Origin: Aquimarina algiphila
GTDB taxonomy: Bacteria; Bacteroidota; Bacteroidia; Flavobacteriales; Flavobacteriaceae
NCBI RefSeq assembly: GCF_007489275.1
Contig: NZ_VLNR01000018.1
Coordinates: 1-64,000, forward strand
DNA: 64,000 nucleotides
Reading direction: 5' to 3'
Every line of letters begins with the position of its first letter. The stretch's first letter is position 1. A program made the position numbers and the translations under genes. The notes under the pieces were generated by a model. That model worked only from the letters and a program-made list of their open reading frames with translations. It did no database searches and was not told where the DNA came from. Positions 3,963 through 64,000 of the stretch are shown here, one piece after another.

Positions 3963-6900
3963 CTAAGTTTCTTTTCCATAGATAACGTAATAAGAACTAG
4001 AACGTCCAAAAATTAAATCATCATAACCATCGTTATTAAAATCACCGGCGTAATTAAGATTGGATACATTGCTAGAAAATGAAAAACCATTGGTTCCATC
4101 TAGGTTTACCAAATCAAATATTGATGGAAAGGCATTTCTCCCAAATAAAACATATCGTCCTCCAAAAGTAACATCATTAAATCCATCGTTATTGATATCC
4201 CCTGCTTTACTGACCTCTAGAGACAAGGATTCTAAAGAATGTTCGACTGCAAAACCATTGATGCCATCTAATTCATCAACATTAAGAGTCGCTGGAAAAC
4301 TAGAACCTCTTGGTCTTCCAAAAACTACAAACTTTCGCGCTTTATTTCCTCCAATGGTTATATCATCTATAGCATCTCCATTTATATCCCCCAAACCAGC
4401 TACATAATAACCTATTTTACCTGAAGTCCCAACATCTCCAACAATAGTAAAGCCATTACTACCATCAATTTCATTAACTCTAATAATTGCTGGAAAACCC
4501 GAACTATTACCATATAAAATATGACATTTTCCAGTTAAACTACTTCCACTGCCTGATCCTTCTGACAGGGCAATATCATCAATCCCATCATTATTGATAT
4601 CACCAACTGTATCAAGAGCATATCCAGGTCTTTCAAAAGGATCAGCTCCTATTACTGTAAATCCATTAGAACCATTAAGTGTGGAAAGATTAAATTCTAA
4701 AGGAAAACCAGTAGCCCTTCCAAAAATTATATAGTTATATCCAAGTTCTGATCCTAAACTAGTTTTTCGAAAAGGATCACTAACCATAATATCATTAATA
4801 CCATCGTTATTGATATCTCCTGCACTGCTCGCCGCAAAAGCTGTATTAGGCTGGCTACTATAGGCTGTATCATCTCTAATAATAAATCCATTTGAACCAT
4901 TAAGCATTTTTAAATTTATATTTGGTGGAAAACCCGAAGCTGTTCCAAAAACAACATATCCACCTCCTATAATATCTATAAAATCTGTACCATAAGGGCC
5001 TGCAAAAGAAAGGTCTTCACCTCTTGCTGCTACTATAAAATCATCTATCCCATCTCCGTTAACGTCTCCTAAAGAATTTACATCGGTTCCTGTTCTACTT
5101 AGTGCTTTCTCTCCATATAAAATAAGACCATTTGTTCCATTTAAATCATTTACAGAAAAACTTGTAGTATTACAATCTATTTCAGCAGTTGTAGTTTTTA
5201 AGCTTACTAAAAATGTACAAGTCTCCATATTACCAGATCTATCAGTTACCGTGATAGTGACATTTGTATCTGAAATGAAAGGTGTTCCTTCGGGAGGATT
5301 TTGACTATAAGTCATGTCTGTATTATAAGTACAGTTATCACTCACAGATGGTAAAAAATGAATATAATTAGGCAACACAGCATTTGCATATAGTTCTTGA
5401 TTGGAAGGGCAACTAATTGTAGGAAGTTCTGAATCATCAAGATCAAAAGTTTCACCATAAAAAACATAAGCTTTTCCATTATTTCTAAATGAAGTTGCCG
5501 ATCTAATTGCGCCCACAATAAAATCGTTTATTCCATCTGCATTGAAATCCCCGATAGAACTAACTGATTGTCCAAAACGTTGCCTACTAAACCTTTCATC
5601 TTCAAAAACCTGATAACCCACATTACCAAAGACCTCCCCAGCATTAATTATATCAGGATTGGAAGAAGAACCAAAAATAACATATGCACCTCCTTGATTA
5701 CCTGCTCCTCCTCCTGTTGCTGAAACTATTATATCACTTATTCCATCATCATTTATGTCATGCAATCCATCTACTGCATATCCTAAATTATTAAATCCCG
5801 AATTTCTTATATAATCAGGTCTTTGGATTCCTCTAATAGTCATACTATTTGCCCCATTCAGATCCGAAGAGTTAAAAGTAGAAGGAAAAGAACCTCTTCC
5901 ATAAATAACGTAAGCCTCTCCAATATCTCTAATAGTGTTAACATCTTTTCTTGGAGCCCCTACAATAAAATCATTTATTCCATCATTATTAAAATCTTCT
6001 GCAGCACCTACAGAAAAACCTAATGCTGTATTAGCCTCTTCACCAAGAATTGAAAAACCATTGCTTCCATCTAATGACAACAAATTTAGAGACGCTGAAA
6101 AACCAATACTATTGCCATAAATAACACAAACTCGTCCCGTAGATAGGTTACTCCCCTCATCATATCCCGGAAACCCCAAAATAATATCATCAATTCCATC
6201 GTTATCAATATCTCCGGCATCGCTTACTTTTGATTGACTCCCTGAATCATTCTGAGGAAAACCATTTATTACAAAGCCATTATTACCGTCCAGTGCAGAT
6301 ACGTCTATATTAGTAATTGTTGAACTCCCAAAAATCACATAAGTCCTTCCATTATTTCTAAAACCAGAACCATCATATAGCGGAGCGTTTATGGTAACAT
6401 CGTCCACCCCATCATCATTAACATCTCCAGCAAAACTAACTGATTCACCAAAATTATCACTACCTTCTCCGCTAATAATAATGCCGTTTCCAGCATTAAT
6501 ATCTGAAATTGTATATAATGAAGAAAAAACCGTATTAGTTCCAAAAATCACTATGGTATTCCCCACATTAGGAAAAGAACTACTTCCAATAATAATATCA
6601 TCAACCCCATCATCATTAAAATCCCCTGCTGTACTTACTGACGTTCCTAATCTATCATTTTGATTTGTTCCTCTTATTATAAAACCATTTGTCCCATTTA
6701 ATGATGTAATGTCAAAAGAAGTTGAAGATACTCCTGACCCTCCAAATATAACATATGCTTCTCCTACATCCTCTATGCTTCCAGAATCTACAAATGGAGC
6801 TCCAATAATAATATCTGAAATTCCATCTCCATTAACATCTCCAGCATCTTTAACGGAATACCCCAAATCATCTTGTTCATTCTCTCCTTCTACGACAAAA

Positions 6901-7040
6901 CTATTTGTTTCATCTATTCCTGATATTGGAACCTCTGGGCATCCTTGTCCAAAAGATATGGACGCATTAAAAATTAGTATTAAACCGACTAAATTAAGTT
7001 TCAATTTTGTTGTAAACACGTTTTTACTAGTATTTCCCAT
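3963..7040 (-). CDS. 5' half of the adhesin: signal peptide, FG-GAP propellers and HYR domain
   Basis: The ATG at 7038-7040 is preferred over the TTG at 7046; it gives 1,025 residues starting with a signal peptide that ends near SFGQ. Seven FG-GAP repeats follow, each with a calcium-binding core such as DVNGDGISD or DFNDDGVDD and a closing strand YVIFG. Next comes an HYR domain with DRSGNMETC, then six further FG-GAP repeats. Such repeats form integrin-alpha-like beta-propellers, usually seven-bladed, so the second propeller lacks its last blade because of the TAG at 3963. The product would be exported by Sec but would lack the sorting domain for surface delivery. Confidence 0.8.
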   Translation of the reverse strand: MGNTSKNVFTTKLKLNLVGLILIFNASISFGQGCPEVPISGIDETNSFVVEGENEQDDLGYSVKDAGDVNGDGISDIIIGAPFVDSGSIEDVGEAYVIFGGSGVSSTSFDITSLNGTNGFIIRGTNQNDRLGTSVSTAGDFNDDGVDDIIIGSSSFPNVGNTIVIFGTNTVFSSLYTISDINAGNGIIISGEGSDNFGESVSFAGDVNDDGVDDVTINAPLYDGSGFRNNGRTYVIFGSSTITNIDVSALDGNNGFVINGFPQNDSGSQSKVSDAGDIDNDGIDDIILGFPGYDEGSNLSTGRVCVIYGNSIGFSASLNLLSLDGSNGFSILGEEANTALGFSVGAAEDFNNDGINDFIVGAPRKDVNTIRDIGEAYVIYGRGSFPSTFNSSDLNGANSMTIRGIQRPDYIRNSGFNNLGYAVDGLHDINDDGISDIIVSATGGGAGNQGGAYVIFGSSSNPDIINAGEVFGNVGYQVFEDERFSRQRFGQSVSSIGDFNADGINDFIVGAIRSATSFRNNGKAYVFYGETFDLDDSELPTISCPSNQELYANAVLPNYIHFLPSVSDNCTYNTDMTYSQNPPEGTPFISDTNVTITVTDRSGNMETCTFLVSLKTTTAEIDCNTTSFSVNDLNGTNGLILYGEKALSRTGTDVNSLGDVNGDGIDDFIVAARGEDLSFAGPYGTDFIDIIGGGYVVFGTASGFPPNINLKMLNGSNGFIIRDDTAYSSQPNTAFAASSAGDINNDGINDIMVSDPFRKTSLGSELGYNYIIFGRATGFPLEFNLSTLNGSNGFTVIGADPFERPGYALDTVGDINNDGIDDIALSEGSGSGSSLTGKCHILYGNSSGFPAIIRVNEIDGSNGFTIVGDVGTSGKIGYYVAGLGDINGDAIDDITIGGNKARKFVVFGRPRGSSFPATLNVDELDGINGFAVEHSLESLSLEVSKAGDINNDGFNDVTFGGRYVLFGRNAFPSIFDLVNLDGTNGFSFSSNVSNLNYAGDFNNDGYDDLIFGRSSSYYVIYGKET

Positions 7041-7071
7041 AACCAATTTTGGTGTTTTTAGTTTTACACAA

Positions 7072-7151
7072 CAAAATTATTTATGATCCAATACATACCA
7101 ATCACCATAAATGGGGTTTTACCATAATATACACCCCCCTGTTTTCAGGGG
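7072..7151 (-). promoter_or_regulatory. promoter with CCCTG-N4-CAGGG box for the adhesin operon
   Basis: Reading on the minus strand, a palindrome (7136-7151) is followed after 30 nt by GGTGATTGGTATG (7106-7094) and then by TAATTTTG (7079-7072). The TTG in the middle element and the TAnnTTTG box are 19 nt apart, matching the Bacteroidota consensus TTG-N19-TAnnTTTG. The ATG at 7040 lies about 25 nt beyond the predicted start site. The palindrome centre is near -78, a position typical of an activator site. The same design recurs at 7325-7393 and 27536-27604. Confidence 0.6.
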
Positions 7152-7324
7152 TTTTTTAATTTCAAAACAAAACACCTCTTCAATTCTTACATTAATTACT
7201 ACTTTCTTTTATAGATCATACTCAAAATCATTTAATACTTAAAAAAACAATTTATTTAGAATAAAACTATTCATGATTATCAGTATTAGTAGAATTTAAA
7301 ATTAGATACCTATTCAACATACCC

Positions 7325-7393
7325 CCCTGTTTTCAGGGTATTGTTTTTCACTAGAAAAGGTGTTTTCCTCACCATGCTTCTATCTCATCTTTG
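7325..7393 (+). promoter_or_regulatory. promoter with CCCTG-N4-CAGGG box for the 7510 cluster
   Basis: The palindrome CCCTGTTTTCAGGG (7325-7338) is followed after exactly 20 nt by GGTGTTTTCC (from 7359) and by CATCTTTG (7386-7393), the likely -7 box. The palindrome centre would be near -68. The geometry matches 27536-27604 almost base for base and differs from 7072-7151 by one helical turn. The rest of the 7041-7509 spacer is AT-rich, and I see no gene in it. Confidence 0.55.
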
Positions 7394-7509
7394 TACTGTG
7401 ATTTTTTAGTCTCTATATCACATCTTGATATATACAGATAATAGATATAGAGGCATTTTAAAAAACATATAAAGTAAAAAACAAGTACTAACCCTTAAAA
7501 ACTAAAATT

Positions 7510-7932
7510 ATGACTTGGGGAATCACTTTAATTCTATTGAGTATTATAGCAGTACCATCATTATTGCTATCTAAAAAACCAAATGCAAAAGAGCTATTAG
7601 AAAAAATCGAACCTTATCAAGGCTGGATCGGACTTGTATTCTGTTTCTGGGGAGTGTGGGGAATTATCTCTGCAGTTCTTAACCTGGGATGGCTTACAAC
7701 ATATCCTATCTGGTGGATAACGCTATTAGCTGGAAACATTATCGAAGCTATTTTAGGATTCATGTTAGGTTTTGGTCTAATCAATAAACTCTTTTTATCC
7801 AAAAACGAGGCAGCTAAAGAAAAAGCTAATCAGCTTAGAGAAAAATTAGCTCCAAAACAAGGTAAACTAGGAATCTTAGGAATCATAGTTGGTTGTTGGA
7901 TGATCGTTGCTTCTTTCTTATTCTTTATATAA
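7510..7932 (+). CDS. four-helix membrane protein of unknown function
   Basis: This 140-residue protein has four predicted membrane segments: the N-terminal [16 protein letters not shown], one around [15 protein letters not shown], one around [20 protein letters not shown], and the C-terminal [18 protein letters not shown] charged cytosolic-type linker ([17 protein letters not shown]) separates the last two. I do not recognise a family. It is the first gene of a same-strand cluster running to 12989 with mostly short gaps and follows the palindrome-type promoter at 7325-7393, so it probably belongs to an envelope-stress-like operon. Function is not inferable from the sequence. Confidence 0.7.
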
Positions 7933-7995
7933 TTGAAAGTAACCAAAATTAAAATTCTAGAATAACAAGTATCTAAACCTATAAAGTAATACATC

Positions 7996-8340
7996 ATGAT
8001 CATATTCGGAACAGGTTCTTCTACAATACAACCTAAACAATTAGAAGGAGGAAGTTGCCCGCATTGTAATACACAAAATAATATGTGGATACAAGGGTAT
8101 AAAAAATACTTCCACGTATTTTGGATACCATTCTTTCCTATCGGAAAAAAAGTATACACCGTCTGTGGTCATTGTAAAGGTGCTTTTGAAAAAAGAGAAA
8201 TTCAAAACCAAGAGTTGATAACAAGTTTTACTGATTTCAAAAATAACCACATCAAAACTCCTTGGTATCACTTTATAGGCTTGATCATTTTTGCAGCAGC
8301 CGTTATGCTAATTGCCATACTACCTCTACTGGGTAAATAA
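7996..8340 (+). CDS. zinc-ribbon membrane protein (zinc_ribbon_15-like)
   Basis: This is 114 residues long. A first Cys pair CPHC (residues about 21-24) and a second pair CGHC (about 56-59) make a zinc ribbon, with the intervening segment FHVFWIPFFPIGKK typical of the zinc_ribbon_15 family. A C-terminal membrane helix (about 92-112) anchors it. It starts at the ATG at 7996, 63 nt after the previous gene. Together with two other zinc-ribbon proteins and an SPFH protein downstream it suggests a membrane-associated assembly; its actual role is unknown. Confidence 0.65.
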   Translation: MIIFGTGSSTIQPKQLEGGSCPHCNTQNNMWIQGYKKYFHVFWIPFFPIGKKVYTVCGHCKGAFEKREIQNQELITSFTDFKNNHIKTPWYHFIGLIIFAAAVMLIAILPLLGK

Positions 8341-8367
8341 AAATAAGTGTATCAAAATCTTTTTATC

Positions 8368-8979
8368 ATGAAAAAACTCGTTTTTATACTACTATTAGCT
8401 ATTACACCAAGTATAGCACAAGAAAATGGTAAAACATTAACCGTAGTTGGAGAAGCTAATAAGCAAGTAGAAGTTAGCAGTTATTTTCTCACTATTTCAT
8501 TAAAACAAATCGTTGCAGATGGGTACCAGCAGCTAGAACCCAAAAGTTTGGCAGAGGTACAACAAATGTATAGTGACAAATTAAAAGCTATAGGTGTTGA
8601 TTTTAGCAAATACAGCAAAAATATTCTTTATCAATTGTATGCATCTTACTCAGAAGTAAATGATGTTGCATACTACAATTACACCTCAACTTCTGAAGAA
8701 GAGATAATGAAAATTATCAAACAGAAAATGAACGGTTTAACTGTAGTACAAGTACAAGCAGATGCAAAGGAAAAAACAAATAAAGAATGGGCTAACTTAA
8801 CCCTTACTGCTGTAGAAGATGCTAAAACAAAGGCGCAAAAAGCAGCCGAAGGACTTGGTAAAAAATTAGGTGAAATCACAAAGGTTGTGAATTCTGACAC
8901 CAAAGCACAATACATAAACATGTACAAACCAGACGAAATTCAAAAACATCTTGTAACGGTAACCTTTACTATAGAGTAA
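8368..8979 (+). CDS. SIMPL domain (DUF541) periplasmic protein
   Basis: A GTG at 8347 opens the frame, but the ATG at 8368 begins a clean signal peptide (MKKLVFILLLAITPSIAQ), so it is the better start, giving 203 residues. The mature part starts with KTLTVVGEANKQVEV, the SIMPL/DUF541 opening, and continues with the mixed alpha/beta pattern of that family, ending in a beta strand KHLVTVTFTIE. SIMPL proteins are secreted or periplasmic and are linked to stress tolerance in other bacteria, but the biochemical role is undefined. It sits 27 nt after the zinc-ribbon gene. Confidence 0.65.
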   Translation: MKKLVFILLLAITPSIAQENGKTLTVVGEANKQVEVSSYFLTISLKQIVADGYQQLEPKSLAEVQQMYSDKLKAIGVDFSKYSKNILYQLYASYSEVNDVAYYNYTSTSEEEIMKIIKQKMNGLTVVQVQADAKEKTNKEWANLTLTAVEDAKTKAQKAAEGLGKKLGEITKVVNSDTKAQYINMYKPDEIQKHLVTVTFTIE

Positions 8980-9020
8980 AAAACTTTTAAACACATTTAA
9001 TAAATCATAAAAACCAAAAA

Positions 9021-9704
9021 ATGAAAACAAAAATTCTAATTGTAGCAGCAATACTAGCTTTTGGAAGCACTTTTAACGCTAATGCACAAAAACTAAAGAA
9101 ATTTGGTAGTTCTATTGAAAAAAAGATTGGTCCTAAAACTATAAAAGTACCATATACAGATGTCGTATCCTATATGGGATATGCTGCTCCTGGAAATGAA
9201 GATGAAGTAAAAGACGGAAAGAAATTTTATTACATCTATGTTTGGATACCTGCTGTTGCTCCAGAACTAGGAGTAAGAATGATGTCTCCTGTTGGTAAAA
9301 CCAAAATCAAAAAGGCTACAAAATCTGCAGCATATACAGAAAATGCTGGTTCTAGTGATTATTTTGATACTTACATTACTCTAGAACGTTCTGATATTAT
9401 AAGTAAAGATAACATTAGCGAAGAGGCTGCAAAAGCTGCTAACTGGGTAACCCTGGAACGTAATGACGATAGTGGTGAAATGCCTAAGCAACCAAGCGGA
9501 AGAGGATACAACTCATTATTAAGATATAAAAGTGAAGTAAGCGATCCTCTTAAAGCATTAACTGTTGGATTATACCGTATTGGTTTTACAACCTATAAGA
9601 CTGGTGAAGTAAAAGGTACATTCTTAGCTGAAGTTGCAGCTCCGATAAAACTTCCTGGAGTAGTTATGGCAAAGACTATTGCAGACTTAAAAAAAGGGTT
9701 ATAA
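9021..9704 (+). CDS. LipL32-like secreted protein, copy 1
   Basis: This 227-residue protein matches the leptospiral major surface protein LipL32 in several segments that I recognise from that protein: YYIYVWIPAV, then GVRMMSPVG, FDTYITLER, YNSLLRYK, and GLYRIGFTTYKTGEVKGTF. LipL32 has a calcium-binding jelly-roll fold and no settled function. The signal peptide ends at NANAQ with no lipobox Cys, so unlike LipL32 it is probably cleaved by signal peptidase I and not lipidated. The acidic Asp run of LipL32 is also absent. A close paralogue lies at 13313-13996. It is embedded in the 7510-12989 cluster. Confidence 0.8.
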   Translation: MKTKILIVAAILAFGSTFNANAQKLKKFGSSIEKKIGPKTIKVPYTDVVSYMGYAAPGNEDEVKDGKKFYYIYVWIPAVAPELGVRMMSPVGKTKIKKATKSAAYTENAGSSDYFDTYITLERSDIISKDNISEEAAKAANWVTLERNDDSGEMPKQPSGRGYNSLLRYKSEVSDPLKALTVGLYRIGFTTYKTGEVKGTFLAEVAAPIKLPGVVMAKTIADLKKGL

Positions 9705-9814
9705 TATAAAATTGGAATATTAATCCCAATGGTTATTCCTATATTTTTTAATACAAAAATATGGGGATAACCACTTTTGTCAAATTCTTTTTTTTCTAAA
9801 ACCCACGATTCGAA

Positions 9815-10015
9815 ATGCAAGAAAACGATAACGAAAAACCAAAAAAAGAAAAAAATCTTTTGGATGATATTCTAGCCAATGCAATCTCTTCTACCAAAAA
9901 ATATGAAGAAACAAATGCTGGTCTGGAAACTAAGAAATGTAAAGGTTGCGGAGCAGCCAGGCCTGATGATACAGATCTTCAGTATTGTGATTTCTGCGGA
10001 GGTCAATTCTATTAA
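9815..10015 (+). CDS. small zinc-ribbon protein
   Basis: This is a 66-residue protein with a charged, helical N-terminal half rich in Lys and Glu, and a C-terminal zinc ribbon made of CKGCG and CDFCGGQFY. It ends 26 nt before the next gene, which also has two CxxC pairs. No catalytic residues are visible. Zinc-ribbon partners of SPFH proteins occur in the Bacillus ydjFGHI operon, which makes a role as an adaptor plausible, though this is analogy only. Confidence 0.6.
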   Translation: MQENDNEKPKKEKNLLDDILANAISSTKKYEETNAGLETKKCKGCGAARPDDTDLQYCDFCGGQFY

Positions 10016-10041
10016 AATACAACTAACAACTCCTTACAACT

Positions 10042-10806
10042 ATGTCTTTCATTGAAACACAAAATAGATGGGATGGTTTTCTCAAAAAAATTAAAGAACG
10101 ATTTCAAGAAGTACTAGAAAAAACCGAAGCTGCATTACCTGTATTATTCGAAGCTACAGATTTTGAGACCACTACTTTTAGTAATGCCTGGCAAGGAATT
10201 TATTCTCAAGCTAGTGATTTGATTTATAAAATAGATGATACCTGGGATGAAAAAGTTGAAGAAGCTTTTGAAAATGCAGGTGTCGATTTTGGTTCAGATC
10301 AATTTAATAAAGAAAGAGACAAAGGGTTCAACACCAGATTTGATTTGGAACAAAAACTAAAATCATACGAAGTTAAAATTTTTGCAGATGCAGCAAAAAA
10401 ATTAGTTCAGGAAGTAAAAGATACATTATCCAAAGATTTTTGTTGTACACAATGTCAGGCAAAACTTCCTGTAAAAGATAATTTTTTCAGATCCTATTAC
10501 AGTACATGCGAGTATTGTCAGACTGTAAACACTTTTGAACCTGGAACCAAAGCTAGAAATATAGAACATTTTGCTGTTCATGCTTTAGGTGAAGAAGCTG
10601 CACTAGAACATTATCTACACCACGAGGAGCTTAAGTTTCAAAATTATCTTAAAAGTAAAGAGATCTACAAAAAAGAAGAATTAGATGCTATATATCAAAA
10701 ATATGTAGAGACTTATCTTAAAAAAAGAATTGAAATTATCCCAGATTATAAAGATCGCTACGAAAAAGATTTTAAAGCTAAAACAGCATTTTTAACTAAC
10801 TATTAG
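10042..10806 (+). CDS. zinc-finger, helix-rich protein of unknown function
   Basis: This is a 254-residue cytosolic-type protein with no signal peptide. The N-terminal part is helical. Residues about 134-163 carry a zinc finger with CCTQC and CEYC pairs separated by about 20 residues. The C-terminal half contains HHEELKF and a Lys/Glu-rich helix. Spacing is 26 nt upstream and 21 nt downstream to the SPFH gene, so co-expression is likely. I do not recognise a specific family, though the order zinc ribbon, zinc finger, SPFH resembles Bacillus ydjG-ydjH-ydjI. Confidence 0.6.
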   Translation: MSFIETQNRWDGFLKKIKERFQEVLEKTEAALPVLFEATDFETTTFSNAWQGIYSQASDLIYKIDDTWDEKVEEAFENAGVDFGSDQFNKERDKGFNTRFDLEQKLKSYEVKIFADAAKKLVQEVKDTLSKDFCCTQCQAKLPVKDNFFRSYYSTCEYCQTVNTFEPGTKARNIEHFAVHALGEEAALEHYLHHEELKFQNYLKSKEIYKKEELDAIYQKYVETYLKKRIEIIPDYKDRYEKDFKAKTAFLTNY

Positions 10807-10827
10807 TAATTCTAAAAAGGAACAGCT

Positions 10828-11880
10828 ATGTCAAATTCATTTAGTAATCAATTACGTTCGGTAATCGAATGGCAAGATCCAAAACCTGAAACTCTTTTTG
10901 AAAAATGGACAGAAGACGGAGATGAAATAAAAAACGCATCAAAGTTGATTGTAGGTCCAGGGCAAGGGTGTCTTTTTGTATACGAAGGAAAAGTGGAAGG
11001 CTTTTTTGAAGAAGAGGGCCTATATGACCTTAAAACAGGAAATATTCCTTTTTGGACAACGATCAAAAACATTATGTACAAGTTTGAATCTGCTCATAAA
11101 GTAGGTATCTTCTTTTACAGAAAGGCTGAAATGCAAAATATACGTTGGGGAACTCCTTCTCCAATTACATATAAAGATCCTGTTTATAATTTTCCTGTGG
11201 GACTTGGCGCCTTTGGAAATTTCTCTTTTAAAATCACAAAACCTGTTGATTTTTTTAGAAATGTGATTGCTGGTGATGATTATTATCCTGTAAAGGCCAT
11301 ACAAAAAGTTATCTTATCCAGAATTACTCAGCCAATAAGTGATTTTCTTGCCAATGCTTCTTTTAGTTATACAGAAATTGATAAACATCGTAATGAAATT
11401 GCATCATTTTCTAAGAATTCATGCACTCAGATTTTTGACGAGCTTGGATTTGAATTGCTTGATTTTAGAATAGAAGGCACCAGTTTTGACGAAGAAACCA
11501 AAACGAGAATAGGAAGAATTGCAGATATGAGTGCAGAAGCTCAAGCAATGAAAGAGCTAGGCGTTAGTTATCAAGATTATCAACAACTTGAAGCCTTAAA
11601 AAATATGGCAAAAAATGAAGGAGGAGGTAACATTGGTATGCAAATGGGAGCTGGATTAGGAATGGGGCAAATGTTAGGGAACATGATGAATAATCAGAAT
11701 AACCAAAACCAAGGGGGGCAGCAGGCTTCGCAACAACAATCTCCACAACAACAAAACACTCCTCCACAAAATGATGATCCAATGCAAAAATTAGAAAAAT
11801 TAAAAAAAATGTTTGATGCTGGATTTATCGATGAGCAGGAGTACAAACAAAAAAAACAAGAAATATTATCTCAATTTTAA
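10828..11880 (+). CDS. SPFH-domain protein with C-terminal SHOCT domain (YdjI-like)
   Basis: This is 350 residues long. The N-terminal two thirds resemble the SPFH 'virion core protein'/YdjI family: it opens with VIEWQDP, has LIVGPGQGCLFVYEGKVEG as the start of the SPFH core, and continues with a long domain ending near residue 235. A low-complexity Gly/Met/Asn/Gln stretch (about 270-315) leads into a SHOCT motif near the end (LEKLKKMFDAGFIDEQEY). SPFH proteins assemble on membranes. In Bacillus, YdjI works with a PspA-type protein and zinc-ribbon partners; here small zinc-ribbon genes precede it but no pspA is visible. Confidence 0.75.
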   Translation: MSNSFSNQLRSVIEWQDPKPETLFEKWTEDGDEIKNASKLIVGPGQGCLFVYEGKVEGFFEEEGLYDLKTGNIPFWTTIKNIMYKFESAHKVGIFFYRKAEMQNIRWGTPSPITYKDPVYNFPVGLGAFGNFSFKITKPVDFFRNVIAGDDYYPVKAIQKVILSRITQPISDFLANASFSYTEIDKHRNEIASFSKNSCTQIFDELGFELLDFRIEGTSFDEETKTRIGRIADMSAEAQAMKELGVSYQDYQQLEALKNMAKNEGGGNIGMQMGAGLGMGQMLGNMMNNQNNQNQGGQQASQQQSPQQQNTPPQNDDPMQKLEKLKKMFDAGFIDEQEYKQKKQEILSQF

Positions 11881-34749: not shown

Positions 34750-34876
34750 CAAAAAATAAAGAAATTAAATACGGCAATTCGCCCCAAATATCGAATAAGC
34801 CCCCAAACATTTAATTCGCCCCAAACCAAAACCCCAAAATATCGAAAGAAAAACCCGAGTCAGCTCGGGTTTTTTC
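34750..34876 (+). ncRNA. candidate small RNA between ftsE and the peptide gene
   Basis: A perfect TAnnTTTG box (TACATTTG, 34736-34743) lies about 125 nt before a strong terminator (34849-34876). The interval contains two copies of AATTCGCCCCAAA and of ATATCGAA. A 22-codon frame from the ATG at 34746 would start upstream of the predicted transcript start, so I prefer a non-coding transcript. It is a weak call: no -33 element is clear. Confidence 0.3.
34849..34876. terminator. strong bidirectional terminator
   Basis: Arms AAAAACCCGAG (34849-34859) and CTCGGGTTTTT (34864-34874) with a 4-nt loop and a T run. It ends the candidate RNA downstream of ftsE. Confidence 0.85.
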
Positions 34877-35038
34877 GTTTTTATAGTATTGATGTTTTTA
34901 GTGCACTCTCCAAATTCTTAAAGTTTTTATAAAAATCTAAACATTAATTAGTTTGGCCCAATTCCTGTAATCTATCCTATAAAAGAGTACTCTATTATCT
35001 CTTTTTAAAAATTTTTGTATCACATAAAAAGTAAGGTT

Positions 35039-35137
35039 ATGAAATTATTCTATGGGATTATGATTATTGATATCAAAGCATTAAAGAATTTTTTGAAACA
35101 ATTACCCGGGGCTAGTAGGTATGCTATGAGAAAGTAA
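35039..35137 (+). CDS. 32-residue peptide of the LPGAS family, copy 5
   Basis: ATG at 35039, preceded by AAGG (35033-35036), then 32 codons and TAA at 35135-35137. The peptide starts MKLFYGIMIIDIKALK and ends FLKQLPGASRYAMRK. It aligns without gaps to four peptides at 62018-63318 and is closest to copy 2 (shared LFYGI, KALK and FLKQLP). Synonymous codons differ from the other copies, which argues for selection on the protein. It has its own terminator at 35196-35225. No signal peptide or metal motif; net positive. Function unknown. Confidence 0.75.
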   Translation: MKLFYGIMIIDIKALKNFLKQLPGASRYAMRK

Positions 35138-61338: not shown

Positions 61339-61872
61339 ATGAAAAAATCAATCTTATTAGTTGCAATTATGTTGATAGGAACATTATCAACTGTAAATGC
61401 TCAAAAATTTGCTGGGTTACAAAAAAGCCCTACCGACATTTCTTATGCAAAGAAAGACCGAAGTGCTAAACCAGAAATCAAAGTTGTATATAGTCGCCCA
61501 CAAAAAAAAGGTCGTCAAATTTTTGGTAATTTAGCCGCTTACGACAAGGTTTGGAGAACTGGTGCTGATGAAGCTACAGAAATTAAATTCTTTCAGGATG
61601 TAAAAATGGGAGATAAAACTGTTAAGGCAGGTACATATTCATTATTTACAATACCTGGAGAGAAGGAATGGACTATAATTCTAAATTCTGACCTAGACAG
61701 CTGGGGAGCATATACTTATGATGAAAGCAAAGATGTTGCAAGAATTAAGGTTCCAGCTGCAAGTGGAGAGGAATTAGAAGTATTTTCTATAGCTTTCAAA
61801 AAAGTTGACAAAGGGTACCATATGGTTATGGGATGGGACAAAGCTCGGGTAGAAGTTCCTTTTTACCTATAA
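61339..61872 (+). CDS. DUF2911 secreted protein
   Basis: This 177-residue protein has a signal peptide ending at NAQ. The DUF2911 pattern is clear: IKVVYSRPQKKGRQIFG, VWRTGADEATEIKFFQDV, GTYSLFTIPGEKEWTIILN, WGAYTYDESKDVARIKV. The family is widespread in Bacteroidota and has no known role. It converges on the first peptide gene, sharing the terminator at 61904-61944. AGTATATCTTTACG near 61300 may be its -7 region. Confidence 0.85.
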   Translation: MKKSILLVAIMLIGTLSTVNAQKFAGLQKSPTDISYAKKDRSAKPEIKVVYSRPQKKGRQIFGNLAAYDKVWRTGADEATEIKFFQDVKMGDKTVKAGTYSLFTIPGEKEWTIILNSDLDSWGAYTYDESKDVARIKVPAASGEELEVFSIAFKKVDKGYHMVMGWDKARVEVPFYL

Positions 61873-61903: not shown

Positions 61904-61944
61904 AAAAAATAGCATGAAACTTCGGACGTTTCATGCTATTTTTT
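61904..61944. terminator. 17-bp hairpin shared by DUF2911 gene and peptide copy 1
   Basis: Arms 61904-61920 and 61928-61944 are perfect complements (7-nt loop TTCGGAC), flanked by A and T runs, so it works in both directions. Confidence 0.9.
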
Positions 61945-62017: not shown

Positions 62018-62116
62018 TTATCTGTGGATAGCGTGACCAGACGCTCCAGGTAACTCTTTTAGAAAATCCATTACGACTCTAAAAGTTAATCTAAATTTCG
62101 TGTAAAATAGCCCCAT
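62018..62116 (-). CDS. 32-residue peptide of the LPGAS family, copy 1
   Basis: ATG at 62116-62114, TAA at 62018. The peptide starts MGLFYTKFRLTFRVV and ends MDFLKELPGASGHAIHR. Gapless alignment with copies 2-5; the core FLKELPGAS is the best conserved part. It has no cleavable signal, no Cys and several positive charges. A candidate -7 box (TATATTTA) ends about 31 nt upstream. TTTAGATATAAA at 62193-62204 and a GGGG-N6-CCCCC box at 62290-62304 upstream recur in front of copy 2. Confidence 0.7.
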   Translation of the reverse strand: MGLFYTKFRLTFRVVMDFLKELPGASGHAIHR

Positions 62117-62346
62117 ATGTTATTTTTAAATTAATTAAATACTACATAAATATAACACCAATATGATGTGATTTCAATAATTATTTATGCATTTTAGATA
62201 TAAATCAAGATTTTATCGATAACAAACACAAAAATCTCAATTCTAGTACTTTCCATTCTAATCAGCTTGTTATTTTTTACTAGGAAAATGGGGTAATTTC
62301 CCCCTAATTTCATTTTGTAATCAACAAACTATTCTTTTTAATTTCC

Positions 62347-62370
62347 AAAAATTGTCCCTCAACAATTTTT
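62347..62370 (-). terminator. terminator of peptide copy 2
   Basis: Arms AAAAATTGT (62347-62355) and ACAATTTTT (62362-62370), 6-nt loop, 7 nt beyond the copy 2 stop. Confidence 0.7.
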
Positions 62371-62376
62371 AAAAAA

Positions 62377-62475
62377 TTATCTATGGATTGCATTACTGCA
62401 AGCCGATGGCAATTGCTTTAAAAAAGCTTTTAATGCCTTTACATCTATAACCAAAATACCGTAAAATAGCCTCAT
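62377..62475 (-). CDS. 32-residue peptide of the LPGAS family, copy 2
   Basis: ATG at 62475-62473, TAA at 62377. It starts MRLFYGILVIDVKALK and ends FLKQLPSACSNAIHR. It is closest to the distant copy 5 in the first half and to copy 1 at the end (AIHR). The motif is degenerate here (LPSAC). A perfect TAnnTTTG box (TATCTTTG, 62509-62502) lies 27 nt before the ATG. Confidence 0.7.
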   Translation of the reverse strand: MRLFYGILVIDVKALKAFLKQLPSACSNAIHR

Positions 62476-62501
62476 AATCTTTTGATTTATAATTTGTTGT
62501 A

Positions 62502-62509
62502 CAAAGATA
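62502..62509 (-). promoter_or_regulatory. -7 promoter box of peptide copy 2
   Basis: On the minus strand TATCTTTG matches TAnnTTTG exactly. Distance from its last G to the ATG is 27 nt, the same as at copy 4. The small palindrome ATCTCAAATGAGAT lies just upstream (62516-62529). Confidence 0.5.
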
Positions 62510-62789
62510 ACACTCATCTCATTTGAGATAAAAAAATTAACACTTCTCAAACAAGGTTTTTAGATATAAAGCATTTTAGAAACGACGTGAGGTATAAAAA
62601 TGAACTATCAACCACTTTATTTTAAAGAAATTTCCCACATGAAAAAGTTGTATTTAAGGGGTTTTCTCCCCCTTTTTGATTCTTTAAAACTAGTAATTAA
62701 ACCCCCTCAGATTTACAAAAAAGCCATATGATATATCAATACCGGTCAGCTATTTCTAAATACTATTATTTCCCCTTCATTACAAATAT

Positions 62790-62832
62790 AAAAAAAGAGA
62801 CTATACACCGCTGGGGGACAGTCTCTTTTTTT
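62790..62832 (-). terminator. terminator of peptide copy 3
   Basis: Arms AAAAAAAGAGACT (62790-62802) and AGTCTCTTTTTTT (62820-62832), 17-nt loop, about 44 nt after the copy 3 stop. Confidence 0.85.
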
Positions 62833-62875
62833 TATGTTTTTAACAAATATTTCAATGTCTAAAAAGTAGTCTTCA

Positions 62876-62974
62876 TCACTTTCGCATCACATAAGCAGAT
62901 GCTCTCGGAAGATCTTTCAAGAATTTAATAATGTTTTTAAAAATAAGCCCTTTAAAAGTAAAAAATGTCCCCAT
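62876..62974 (-). CDS. 32-residue peptide of the LPGAS family, copy 3
   Basis: ATG at 62974-62972, TGA at 62876. It starts MGTFFTFKGLIFKNI and ends IKFLKDLPRASAYVMRK. Same length and alignment as the others, though the core has Arg in place of Gly. It has its own terminator. A clear promoter box is not visible in the AT-rich upstream region. Confidence 0.65.
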   Translation of the reverse strand: MGTFFTFKGLIFKNIIKFLKDLPRASAYVMRK

Positions 62975-63126
62975 ATGTGATTCATTAAATATTAATTCTC
63001 AATCAATTTAATTAAAGACATTAAAAAATACAAGATTTTTGTTAAATAATTAACAGATTTCCAGAGACATACAAGAATAAGTACTTCAAAAAAATAAACC
63101 TAAATAGGTTTTTTACTTTTCAAATA

Positions 63127-63161
63127 AATAAGAGATTGTTTTATTTAAACAATCTCTTATT
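63127..63161 (-). terminator. terminator of peptide copy 4
   Basis: Arms 63127-63140 and 63148-63161 (AATAAGAGATTGTT and its complement), 7-nt loop. A second small hairpin (63096-63111) with T runs on both strands lies just beyond. Confidence 0.8.
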
Positions 63162-63219
63162 AAAGGTTCAAAACATATGACAATGCATAATATGAAAACA
63201 TACTCATATTAATTTCTTA

Positions 63220-63318
63220 TTATTTATACATCGCGTATCGTGAAGCTCCTGGTAGTTCTTTTAAAAAACTAATGACAACATTAAAGTTTAATCCGAAAAT
63301 AGTAGTAAAATATTTCAT
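63220..63318 (-). CDS. 32-residue peptide of the LPGAS family, copy 4
   Basis: ATG at 63318-63316, TAA at 63220. It starts MKYFTTIFGLNFNVV and ends ISFLKELPGASRYAMYK, with the full consensus core. A TAnnTTTG box (TAAATTTG, 63352-63345) lies 27 nt before the ATG, predicting a leader of about 20 nt. Its terminator is at 63127-63161. It is the first of the row, nearest queE. Confidence 0.75.
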   Translation of the reverse strand: MKYFTTIFGLNFNVVISFLKELPGASRYAMYK

Positions 63319-63344: not shown

Positions 63345-63352
63345 CAAATTTA
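63345..63352 (-). promoter_or_regulatory. -7 promoter box of peptide copy 4
   Basis: TAAATTTG on the minus strand matches TAnnTTTG. The spacing to the ATG (27 nt) equals that of copy 2. A TTTTTTG run lies about 23 nt upstream as a poor -33 element. Confidence 0.45.
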
Positions 63353-63426: not shown

Positions 63427-63451
63427 GACGAAAGGTAATTTCGTCTTTTTT
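63427..63451 (+). terminator. plus-strand terminator upstream of peptide copy 4
   Basis: Arms GACGAAA (63427-63433) and TTTCGTC (63439-63445), followed by a T run only on the plus strand. No plus-strand gene precedes it, so it implies a plus-strand transcript running antisense to the copy 4 leader. Confidence 0.6.
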
Positions 63452-63496: not shown

Positions 63497-64000
63497 TTAT
63501 GGAATATTAAGATACTTATGGGTCTGCAGAGAAACCTTCCATTTTGGGTTTTTCATAACATAATCCACTATCATTGGAATCATTTTTTCGCGAACGCTCC
63601 ATTCTGGTTGAAGATATAATATACAGTGATCAGAAACCTTAGCAGCTTGCTCTTCTGCAAAAGCAAAATCACTTTTATTATAGACAATGCACTTTAATTC
63701 ATGGGCTTTTTGATAAATCTCTTCTTTAGGAAGTTTTACTTTCTTGGGGGAAAGACAAATCCAATCCCATTCTCCTGTCAAAGCATAAGCTCCAGAAGTT
63801 TCTATATGAGTTTTTGCTCCTCTATCTCTAAGGCCCTGGGTTAACAAACTCATATCCCATGTTAAAGGTTCACCACCAGTAACAACTACTACATCACTAT
63901 ATTTCAAAGAATTTTCTATAATTAAGCCTGTATCTGTAGGAGGATGCAGGTCAGCGTTCCAACTCTCTTTTACATCACACCAATGACATCCAACATCACA
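63497..64000 (-). CDS. queE: 7-carboxy-7-deazaguanine synthase, 3' part
   Basis: The frame is open to the window edge (167 codons seen); the 5' end lies outside. The visible part begins at the radical-SAM cluster motif CDVGCHWCD, whose Cys residues bind the 4Fe-4S cluster, followed by VKESWNADLH, the glycine-rich VVTGGEPLTWD (SAM binding) and THIETSGAYALTG. QueE makes the 7-deazaguanine ring for queuosine and related modified bases from carboxy-tetrahydropterin. The shorter TTG start at 63907 is internal and not real. Neighbouring pathway genes, if any, lie beyond the window. Confidence 0.9.
   Translation of the reverse strand, partial: CDVGCHWCDVKESWNADLHPPTDTGLIIENSLKYSDVVVVTGGEPLTWDMSLLTQGLRDRGAKTHIETSGAYALTGEWDWICLSPKKVKLPKEEIYQKAHELKCIVYNKSDFAFAEEQAAKVSDHCILYLQPEWSVREKMIPMIVDYVMKNPKWKVSLQTHKYLNIP

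Follow-up and report, generated by a model that had tools for sequence, protein, structure and literature searches.

We report a family of predicted small proteins of about 32 residues in a stretch of 64,000 nucleotides (nt) of Aquimarina algiphila (positions 1 to 64,000 of contig NZ_VLNR01000018.1, assembly GCF_007489275.1; this whole stretch is hereafter the window). Judged from its sequences, this is a real, selected, multicopy family of the Flavobacteriaceae, expanded in Aquimarina and without a name in the sources searched. Four of its genes stand in a row on the minus strand of the window, and a fifth lies apart on the plus strand (Table 1). Part of the N-terminal pattern that had been ascribed to the protein is, by the evidence given below, probably a nucleotide signal, which is new here.

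A multicopy family of small proteins

The initial annotation, made from the window only, had placed four minus-strand open reading frames of 33 codons and had counted them as part of a five-member family. The four frames lie exactly where it put them and align without gaps. Its fifth member also exists, but the total does not hold, since the genome contains 11 copies. Eight columns do not vary among the five copies of the window (M1, F4, F18, L19, K20, L22, P23 and A25). A profile built from these five peptides, which thus contains its own training set, was searched against the 7.0-Mb genome of the window. It retrieved 11 copies with E values of at most 5.4e-7. They are spread over seven contigs and contain no internal stop, and the six located beyond the window scored between 1.8e-12 and 5.4e-7. 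Because six additional copies free of internal stops were found in the rest of the genome, the family stands far beyond chance.

A profile search for more copies had been suggested, and they were found in most genomes of the genus. With a broader profile of 28 sequences and a threshold of E <= 0.01, 57 of 66 genus genomes carried between 1 and 15 copies, giving 449 matches in total.

By their sequences, the peptide genes are protein-coding and under purifying selection. Among 28 orthologs of copy 1, the ratio of non-synonymous to synonymous differences (pN/pS) was 0.11 and 71% of the differences fell at third positions. The corresponding values were 0.24 and 55% for 26 orthologs of copy 2, and 0.25 and 56% for a dispersed ortholog group of 13. 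Over all 116 copies of 32 residues in the pN/pS set, the ratio was 0.48 with a pS of 0.66. Loss of the reading frame among relatives had been named as evidence that would speak against the family; the homologues hold both frame and length, with pN/pS well below 1. The length is 32 residues in 115 of 138 distinct peptides (range 28-40). The initial annotation had pointed to silent codon change with a constant protein; this stands, yet the first codons are also constrained at the nucleotide level.

That the family has no name was borne out by model searches. For 13 peptides (the five of the window and eight from other genera), the best Pfam and NCBIfam scores were 13-15.3 bits against cut-offs of 21-33, and none was reached. 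Within the window, Rfam 15 gave no match at the gathering threshold. Protein databases contain seven 32-residue predictions that closely resemble the fifth copy, including the window's own; none of them has a name or a Pfam domain. The family is therefore not wholly unpredicted in protein databases, but it is unnamed there.

A conserved C-terminal signature behind a basic helix

The peptides are nearly constant at the extreme C-terminus, where the signature [LY][PAG]x-A-[SC]-x-[YHN]-A-[IM]-[HR]-[RKH]-stop follows a basic amphipathic helix. Counted back from the stop codon in 141 distinct peptides, R, K or H occupies position -1 in 141, H or R position -2 in 132, I or M position -3 in 134, A position -4 in 128, Y, N or H position -5 in 139, A position -8 in 132, P, A or G position -10 in 139, and L or Y position -11 in 138; the set had been pre-filtered loosely on the last eight residues, and when this filter was repeated it kept 146 of 154 distinct frames. 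Among the eight frames removed, three belong to true family members of genome G013, with the ending GASQR or GAANR, and the other five look like chance. In that genome, two near-identical copies and a third one, with these endings, lie between queE and asnB (L116), without the DUF2911-like gene.

For the five window sequences, AlphaFold2 predicted a single helix over residues 2-31 with a mean confidence (predicted local distance difference test, pLDDT) of 70. The mean net charge is +3.7 and the mean hydropathy 0.06. When the first 24 residues were shuffled, an average of 11% of the shuffles attained a helical moment as high as that observed, where 50% would be expected. No signal peptide was evident by eye, no predictor having been run. 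A hairpin in the RNA encoding the C-terminus was also considered. Pairing between the codons of A25 and A29 is possible in some copies (GCGT..ACGC in copy 1 is an example), yet it is not a general feature: in 130 copies their third bases paired in 61 against 54 expected (Watson-Crick pairs, 53 against 40), and T-T was the commonest combination.

A nucleotide signal near the start codon

All four copies of the cluster contain the hexamer TTTTAC, beginning at +9 to +12 and read in two different frames (Table 1). Furthermore, of 95 codons for Tyr5, 82 are TAC, whereas TAC encodes 15 of the 108 other tyrosines in these peptides and 23% of those in neighbouring genes. In 80 of 153 copies the shorter form TTTAC occurs within the first eight codons, compared with 25.1 +/- 3.8 after synonymous resampling. 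In most motif-bearing copies it lies at +11 in the frame that reads F-Y, the exceptions being a few groups. In five of seven copies that encode 28 residues, it sits in the 5' untranslated region (UTR). Where the -7 box is exact, it lies 34-36 nt from the motif in most copies, and in five orthologs of copy 1 the spacing is 42-51 nt. The fifth window copy lacks TTTTAC, and the motif is likewise missing from 8 of 11 dispersed copies with an SSYAIRK-type ending.

The occurrence of TTTTAC in two frames, together with the TAC bias of Tyr5, indicates that part of the M-x-x-F pattern is probably a feature of the DNA or RNA. F4 is indeed invariant in the five copies, as had been claimed, but for part of this pattern the nucleotide motif is a better account than the protein by itself.

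Promoters, upstream module and terminators

The consensus of the Bacteroidetes -7 box is TAnnTTTG. The boxes proposed for copies 2 and 4 are real, although the distance to the ATG is 26 nt and not 27. Between -48 and -18, the box is present in 47 of 153 copies, compared with a frequency of 2.2% for windows of 30 nt. In 149 copies, 93 sites were found on the sense strand, 42 of them in one 10-nt bin just before the ATG.

A module of about 170 nt is common to the upstream regions of copies 1 and 2 and of many of their relatives. It consists of a G3-5/C3-5 hairpin followed by GTAGG, TTATCGATAA, TATRTCTAAAA and TGTTAA blocks. The hairpin, sought between -120 and -250, was present in 53 of 153 copies, in 50 of these at -180 to -202; the same pattern occurred in the 130 nt 3' of the gene in 13 of 153. 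Window copies 3 and 4 gave no match to the upstream-module profiles. The module may represent protein-binding sites or a small RNA gene. A wider regulon was looked for with a sequence-only model in four genomes of the genus and rejected. The 11 strong matches (E 6.6e-21 to 1.6e-7, two of them in the window's genome) all lay in the queE cluster, and the remaining matches started at E 1e-3; this holds for the best 150 of 6,607-11,199 candidates scored per genome, and the model missed the possible module of the fifth copy, so that absence elsewhere is not proved.

A large dispersed group has a different upstream arrangement with repeated TTATTAACA. Most dispersed copies beside a gene for a protein of 158 aa (L080, L096, L102, L118) have several TTATTAACA-like repeats upstream, one of them reversed (GTTAATAAC), which are perhaps the binding site of a regulator.

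Each of the four copies had been credited with its own terminator. Hairpins do follow copies 1, 3 and 4, that of copy 1 being shared, but copy 2 has no clear terminator. Among 149 copies, 52 have a strict sense terminator within 200 nt. The terminator scan gave five sites over both strands, four of them distinct, against 0.5 expected. Three terminator-like hairpins on the plus strand lie upstream of copies 1, 2 and 4. One such plus-strand hairpin, at 63427-63445 between queE and copy 4, has no obvious plus-strand gene before it and could end a small RNA.

Distribution in the Flavobacteriaceae

The neighbouring QueE protein had Aquimarina atlantica and A. litoralis among its closest named relatives (87% identity), so that the genome belongs in or next to Aquimarina. 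A set of 80 QueE loci was kept, eight of them titled Aquimarina. Six of these eight have 3-4 peptide copies each, always including an ortholog of copy 1, and the remaining 72 of the 80 loci gave no peptide match. For the family level, a profile of 25 sequences, 10 from other genera, was run on 249 genomes. At E <= 0.05 it matched 47 genomes, many of the weak matches being due to chance. Many matches between E 0.001 and 0.05 have internal stops or lie inside long frames, and these were left uncounted. At E <= 1e-4, 15 genomes remained. Two belong to the genus of the window, and the other 13 represent 12 further genera; of these 13, six had contributed sequences to the profile and seven were new. 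The frames of these matches are 33-59 residues long, and one copy has an internal stop. A degenerate SYAIHR-stop pattern gave 23 matches in 18 of 249 genomes, compared with seven in seven for the reversed control, some of the 23 lying outside the family. In a class-wide draw, none of 196 other genomes matched at E <= 0.001. Class-level matches of the first broader profile were dismissed as chance; they had E values of 9.9e-5 or weaker, long frames, internal stops or no C-terminal ending. In many genomes of these large searches the best 20-40 candidates were scored, so that some copies may have escaped.

The other genera of the Flavobacteriaceae carry divergent copies, one to three per genome. 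In these, the same C-terminal ending stands behind unrelated N-termini (for instance ...AEYAKASSYAIHR), which are still mostly basic and helix-like (for instance MKDLKQLWSEKLSKWNEKLAEYAKASSYAIHR). In four other genera (L193/G191, L194/G233, L195/G240, L196/G153), two copies lie 4-8 kb apart, with flanking gene families that are only partly shared. In two other genera, copies (L206, L207, L208) adjoin in similar arrangement what we take to be rplU-rpmA (L21-L27), and one genome has a tandem pair. At L198:7205-7315 (G313), the contig ends a few bases past the copy, which may reflect a repeat at an assembly break.

Genomic surroundings and decay

The cluster is flanked by genes that we take, from their sequences, to be queE (ending at 63497, minus strand) and a DUF2911-like gene (61339-61872, plus strand), the latter adjoining asnB. 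Peptide copies stand in intergenic positions, several of them common to more than one species; the place between queE and the DUF2911-like gene is occupied in six genome stretches (L087, L088, L095, L100, L113, L117). Some dispersed copies also hold their position between species, for example beside the 158-aa gene in four genomes. Over 60 blocks, the downstream neighbour is convergent in 41 (P 0.006, related loci being counted apart) and the upstream gene divergent in 29. A constant partner gene, which the initial annotation had suggested as a check, was sought around the 60 blocks (56 loci), and none was present outside the queE cluster. At the 56 loci, the commonest families within 4 kb outside that cluster were SDR-like (seven) and EamA-like (six), names which we assign presumptively from sequence; within 1 kb, the numbers fell to zero and two. 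A phage, plasmid or other mobile origin was rejected: copy 1 matched no plasmid and gave a single weak, partial match to phage (E 7), and different species have several positions in common.

Decay is seen at several places. At L117:5350-5900 (G008), an intact module is followed by a peptide frame with an in-frame stop and a frameshift; hence one copy can die while its recognisable module persists. Within the cluster at L095:6071-6195 (G020) a copy is split, and in another genus a copy has an internal stop (L134, G036). The family seems to grow and decay by duplication, yet to be retained as a whole.

Table 1. Positions in the window of the peptide genes and of the elements associated with them. 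The nhmmer and R1 profiles both include the module sequences of copies 1 and 2.
Feature	Positions	Strand	Sequence or remark
Peptide gene copy 1	62018..62116	-	MGLFYTKFRLTFRVVMDFLKELPGASGHAIHR
Peptide gene copy 2	62377..62475	-	MRLFYGILVIDVKALKAFLKQLPSACSNAIHR
Peptide gene copy 3	62876..62974	-	MGTFFTFKGLIFKNIIKFLKDLPRASAYVMRK
Peptide gene copy 4	63220..63318	-	MKYFTTIFGLNFNVVISFLKELPGASRYAMYK
Peptide gene, fifth window copy	35039..35137	+	MKLFYGIMIIDIKALKNFLKQLPGASRYAMRK
TTTTAC motif, copy 1	62102..62107	-	+10..+15, codons 4-5, read F-Y
TTTTAC motif, copy 2	62461..62466	-	+10..+15, codons 4-5, read F-Y
TTTTAC motif, copy 3	62958..62963	-	+12..+17, other frame, read F-F-T
TTTTAC motif, copy 4	63305..63310	-	+9..+14, other frame, read Y-F-T
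-7-like box, copy 1	62147..62154	-	TATATTTA, 7/8 to TAnnTTTG
-7 box, copy 2	62502..62509	-	TATCTTTG, 26 nt before ATG
-7 box, copy 4	63345..63352	-	TAAATTTG, 26 nt before ATG
Upstream module, copy 1	62150..62337	-	nhmmer E 1.5e-31, model R1 E 5.9e-15; hairpin 62290-62304
Upstream module, copy 2	62504..62694	-	nhmmer E 2.3e-32, model R1 E 4.5e-18; G5..C4 hairpin 62658-62672
Possible divergent module before fifth copy	34813..34957	+	nhmmer E 2e-9 with copy-4-like profile; no R1 match
Shared element TTTATATCTAAAA, copy 1 module	62192..62207	-	second instance 62558-62573 (copy 2); kept across orthologs
Terminator hairpin after copy 1	61904..61944	-	shared with convergent DUF2911-like gene; sole minus-strand site in terminator scan
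Hairpin after copy 3	62790..62832	-	from inverted-repeat list; absent from terminator scan
Hairpin after copy 4	63127..63161	-	from inverted-repeat list; absent from terminator scan

Favoured reading and alternatives

Our favoured reading, held tentatively and with somewhat less than even confidence, is that the small protein works inside the cell, with its helix placed on the inner membrane or in the groove of a protein and its C-terminal tail binding a target common to all copies. Most copies look like short stand-alone genes, each with a promoter directly upstream of the ATG and a transcript about 200 nt long. The peptide would stay inside the cell, and its paralogs would deliver the same action under different conditions, the copies differing in when they are made. 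Several points weigh against this reading. The AlphaFold2 model is of modest confidence and is weakest at the tail (mean pLDDT of 60 for residues 21-30 and of 53 for residues 31-32), the copies of genome G013 have a different C-terminus, and the common target is one that we purely infer. Amphipathic basic helices are common in many small peptides, secreted ones included. Two of the eight Aquimarina-titled queE loci have no peptide, and the existence of broken copies means that single copies are dispensable. Finally, the peptide sequences are related, so that the counts are not independent, and the P value given above treats related loci separately.

The initial annotation had made no choice between secreted or membrane-active peptides, signalling peptides and type I toxins. 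The basic amphipathic helix fits membrane activity, but neither a signal peptide (by eye) nor an antisense RNA on the divergent strand was found. A new family of type I toxins, in which a membrane-active peptide is silenced, as in AapA/IsoA or Ldr/Rdl, by an antisense or trans-acting RNA and TTTTAC would be the RNA target, is in our view unlikely. Such toxins would account for small basic amphipathic peptides in several stand-alone chromosomal copies, for the nucleotide-level constraint at the start of the mRNA and for the cationic C-terminal pair, a pair essential for toxicity in AapA1 according to PMC8309996 and PMC10537873. A divergent antisense RNA was nevertheless set aside as a candidate, on the absence of a -7 box peak, of cognate complementarity and of a strand bias in the module hairpin. 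In contrast to the sense strand, the 41 antisense TAnnTTTG sites of the 149 copies were scattered without a peak. The complementarity between divergent strand and mRNA did not exceed that of shuffled sequences for 26 copy-1 loci (-36.4 against -37.5 kcal/mol), 25 copy-2 loci (-34.3 against -36.4) or 28 others, a part of the rest (-37.3 against -37.3). T-runs accompany the module hairpin on either strand alike (29 against 27 of 53), and strict upstream terminators numbered 24 on the divergent and 19 on the sense strand of 149 copies. The near-zero mean hydropathy is also low for a membrane-spanning toxin. The three plus-strand terminator-like hairpins upstream of copies 1, 2 and 4 are compatible with divergent small RNAs and keep this idea alive, with low weight. 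An antitoxin RNA that overlaps in cis under a different promoter, or that acts in trans, may also exist. We consider it rather unlikely that the peptides are leaderless secreted membrane-active or signalling molecules, like phenol-soluble modulins or leaderless bacteriocins, that act on neighbours or kin. They are leaderless, cationic and in tandem, and their order of helix and conserved tail is that of LsbB and EntK1, which combine an amphiphilic helix with a receptor-binding C-terminal part (PMC5413573). The EamA-like transporters counted above are common genes, and three of those six loci share one place; no family of transport or immunity genes recurs near all or most of the 56 loci. Moreover, purifying selection maintains the copies in most species of the genus, which distinguishes them from strain-specific bacteriocins, and no bacteriocin family appeared among the Pfam and NCBIfam matches of the 13 peptides. 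The NCBIfam model for phenol-soluble modulins (PSM_epsilo, cut-off 33 bits) gave 13.2 bits for one of the eight distant members and no match for the window copies. The outcome of the phage and plasmid searches with copy 1, described above, also counts against this reading.

The data at the start codon bear on a dual-function RNA, in which the transcript is a regulatory RNA and the peptide a second product. The two frames of TTTTAC in the window, the location of TTTAC in the 5' UTR of most 28-residue copies and its excess over synonymous resampling are what such an RNA would produce; we nevertheless find it improbable, as most motif-bearing copies share the frame at +11 and third positions vary freely beyond the first codons. 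When the mRNA was folded by consensus, both cluster groups showed a single stem of 3-4 pairs, and the dispersed group showed a larger but unremarkable structure (sense z of -4.0 and -0.5 for the cluster groups and -1.3 for the dispersed one, against a crude column-shuffle control). In termination-stalling peptides, the conserved residues run up to the stop codon. The conserved residues of this family likewise end exactly there, as expected of a leader peptide or attenuator that stalls at its C-terminus and controls a downstream gene. Since the downstream genes are mostly convergent and not constant, an operon leader is unlikely as the general function, and we hold this explanation to be very improbable.

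Going beyond the favoured reading of an intracellular protein with a common target, one may picture an undescribed peptide system of the Flavobacteriaceae with up to 15 proteins of 32 residues per genome, all addressing one conserved target through the C-terminal tail, and a UUUUAC element, often present near the start codon of the Aquimarina mRNAs (in two reading frames, and in some 5' UTRs), by which one factor or RNA would govern many of them; we regard this as doubtful. If the shared-target reading were true, a new regulatory or membrane peptide system would exist in an abundant marine group. Bacterial genomes are nowhere less well charted than in their small proteins of fewer than 50 residues, and coverage of the Bacteroidota is poor. 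The family described here has about 450 matches in a single genus and is clearly under selection. Its C-terminal signature is well enough defined for mutagenesis and pull-down experiments, and the TTTTAC motif would provide a further level of control, testable by a single silent change. Among the papers listed on small proteins, small RNAs and type I toxins of Aquimarina, Flavobacteriaceae and Bacteroidota, none described the family, most subscription journals and all preprints lying outside the scope of this search. Aquimarina does not appear in the main text, as far as available, of a ribosome-profiling (Ribo-seq) study of marine biofilm strains (PMC11683478).

Comparison with known systems

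The smalltalk proteins of Bacteroides form an NCBIfam family of similar length. Both groups are very short proteins of Bacteroidota, but none of the five window and eight distant members matched the smalltalk model.

AapA/IsoA of Helicobacter pylori is encoded at several stand-alone chromosomal loci. The present peptides resemble the AapA/IsoA, Ldr and Fst systems in size, in the amphipathic helix, in the C-terminal basic pair, in their stand-alone loci and in constraint at the nucleotide level. AapA itself (PMC8309996) has about 30 residues, an amphipathic helix and a C-terminal basic pair. In contrast to AapA/IsoA, neither an antisense promoter nor cognate complementarity was detected for the peptide family, its hydropathy is near zero, and its last eight residues are strongly conserved.

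The LsbB family (LsbB, EntK1 and EntEJ97, with RseP as receptor) and the AapA-type small membrane peptides offer an analogy of design, in that a variable amphipathic helix would be joined to a constant C-terminal recognition tail. From the LsbB family the peptides described here differ in having no bacteriocin family match and no recurrent transport or immunity neighbours, in being encoded by many chromosomal copies in nearly all species of the genus, and in their Gram-negative host of the Bacteroidota. Membership of the LsbB or the AapA type is not claimed: family models gave no match, an antisense RNA was not detected, and the copies were not seen to be accompanied by genes for transport or immunity.

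Phenol-soluble modulins are short, leaderless and amphipathic peptides encoded in tandem, and the peptides of the window share all four properties. Unlike the modulins, the family described here is basic and carries a conserved C-terminal signature.

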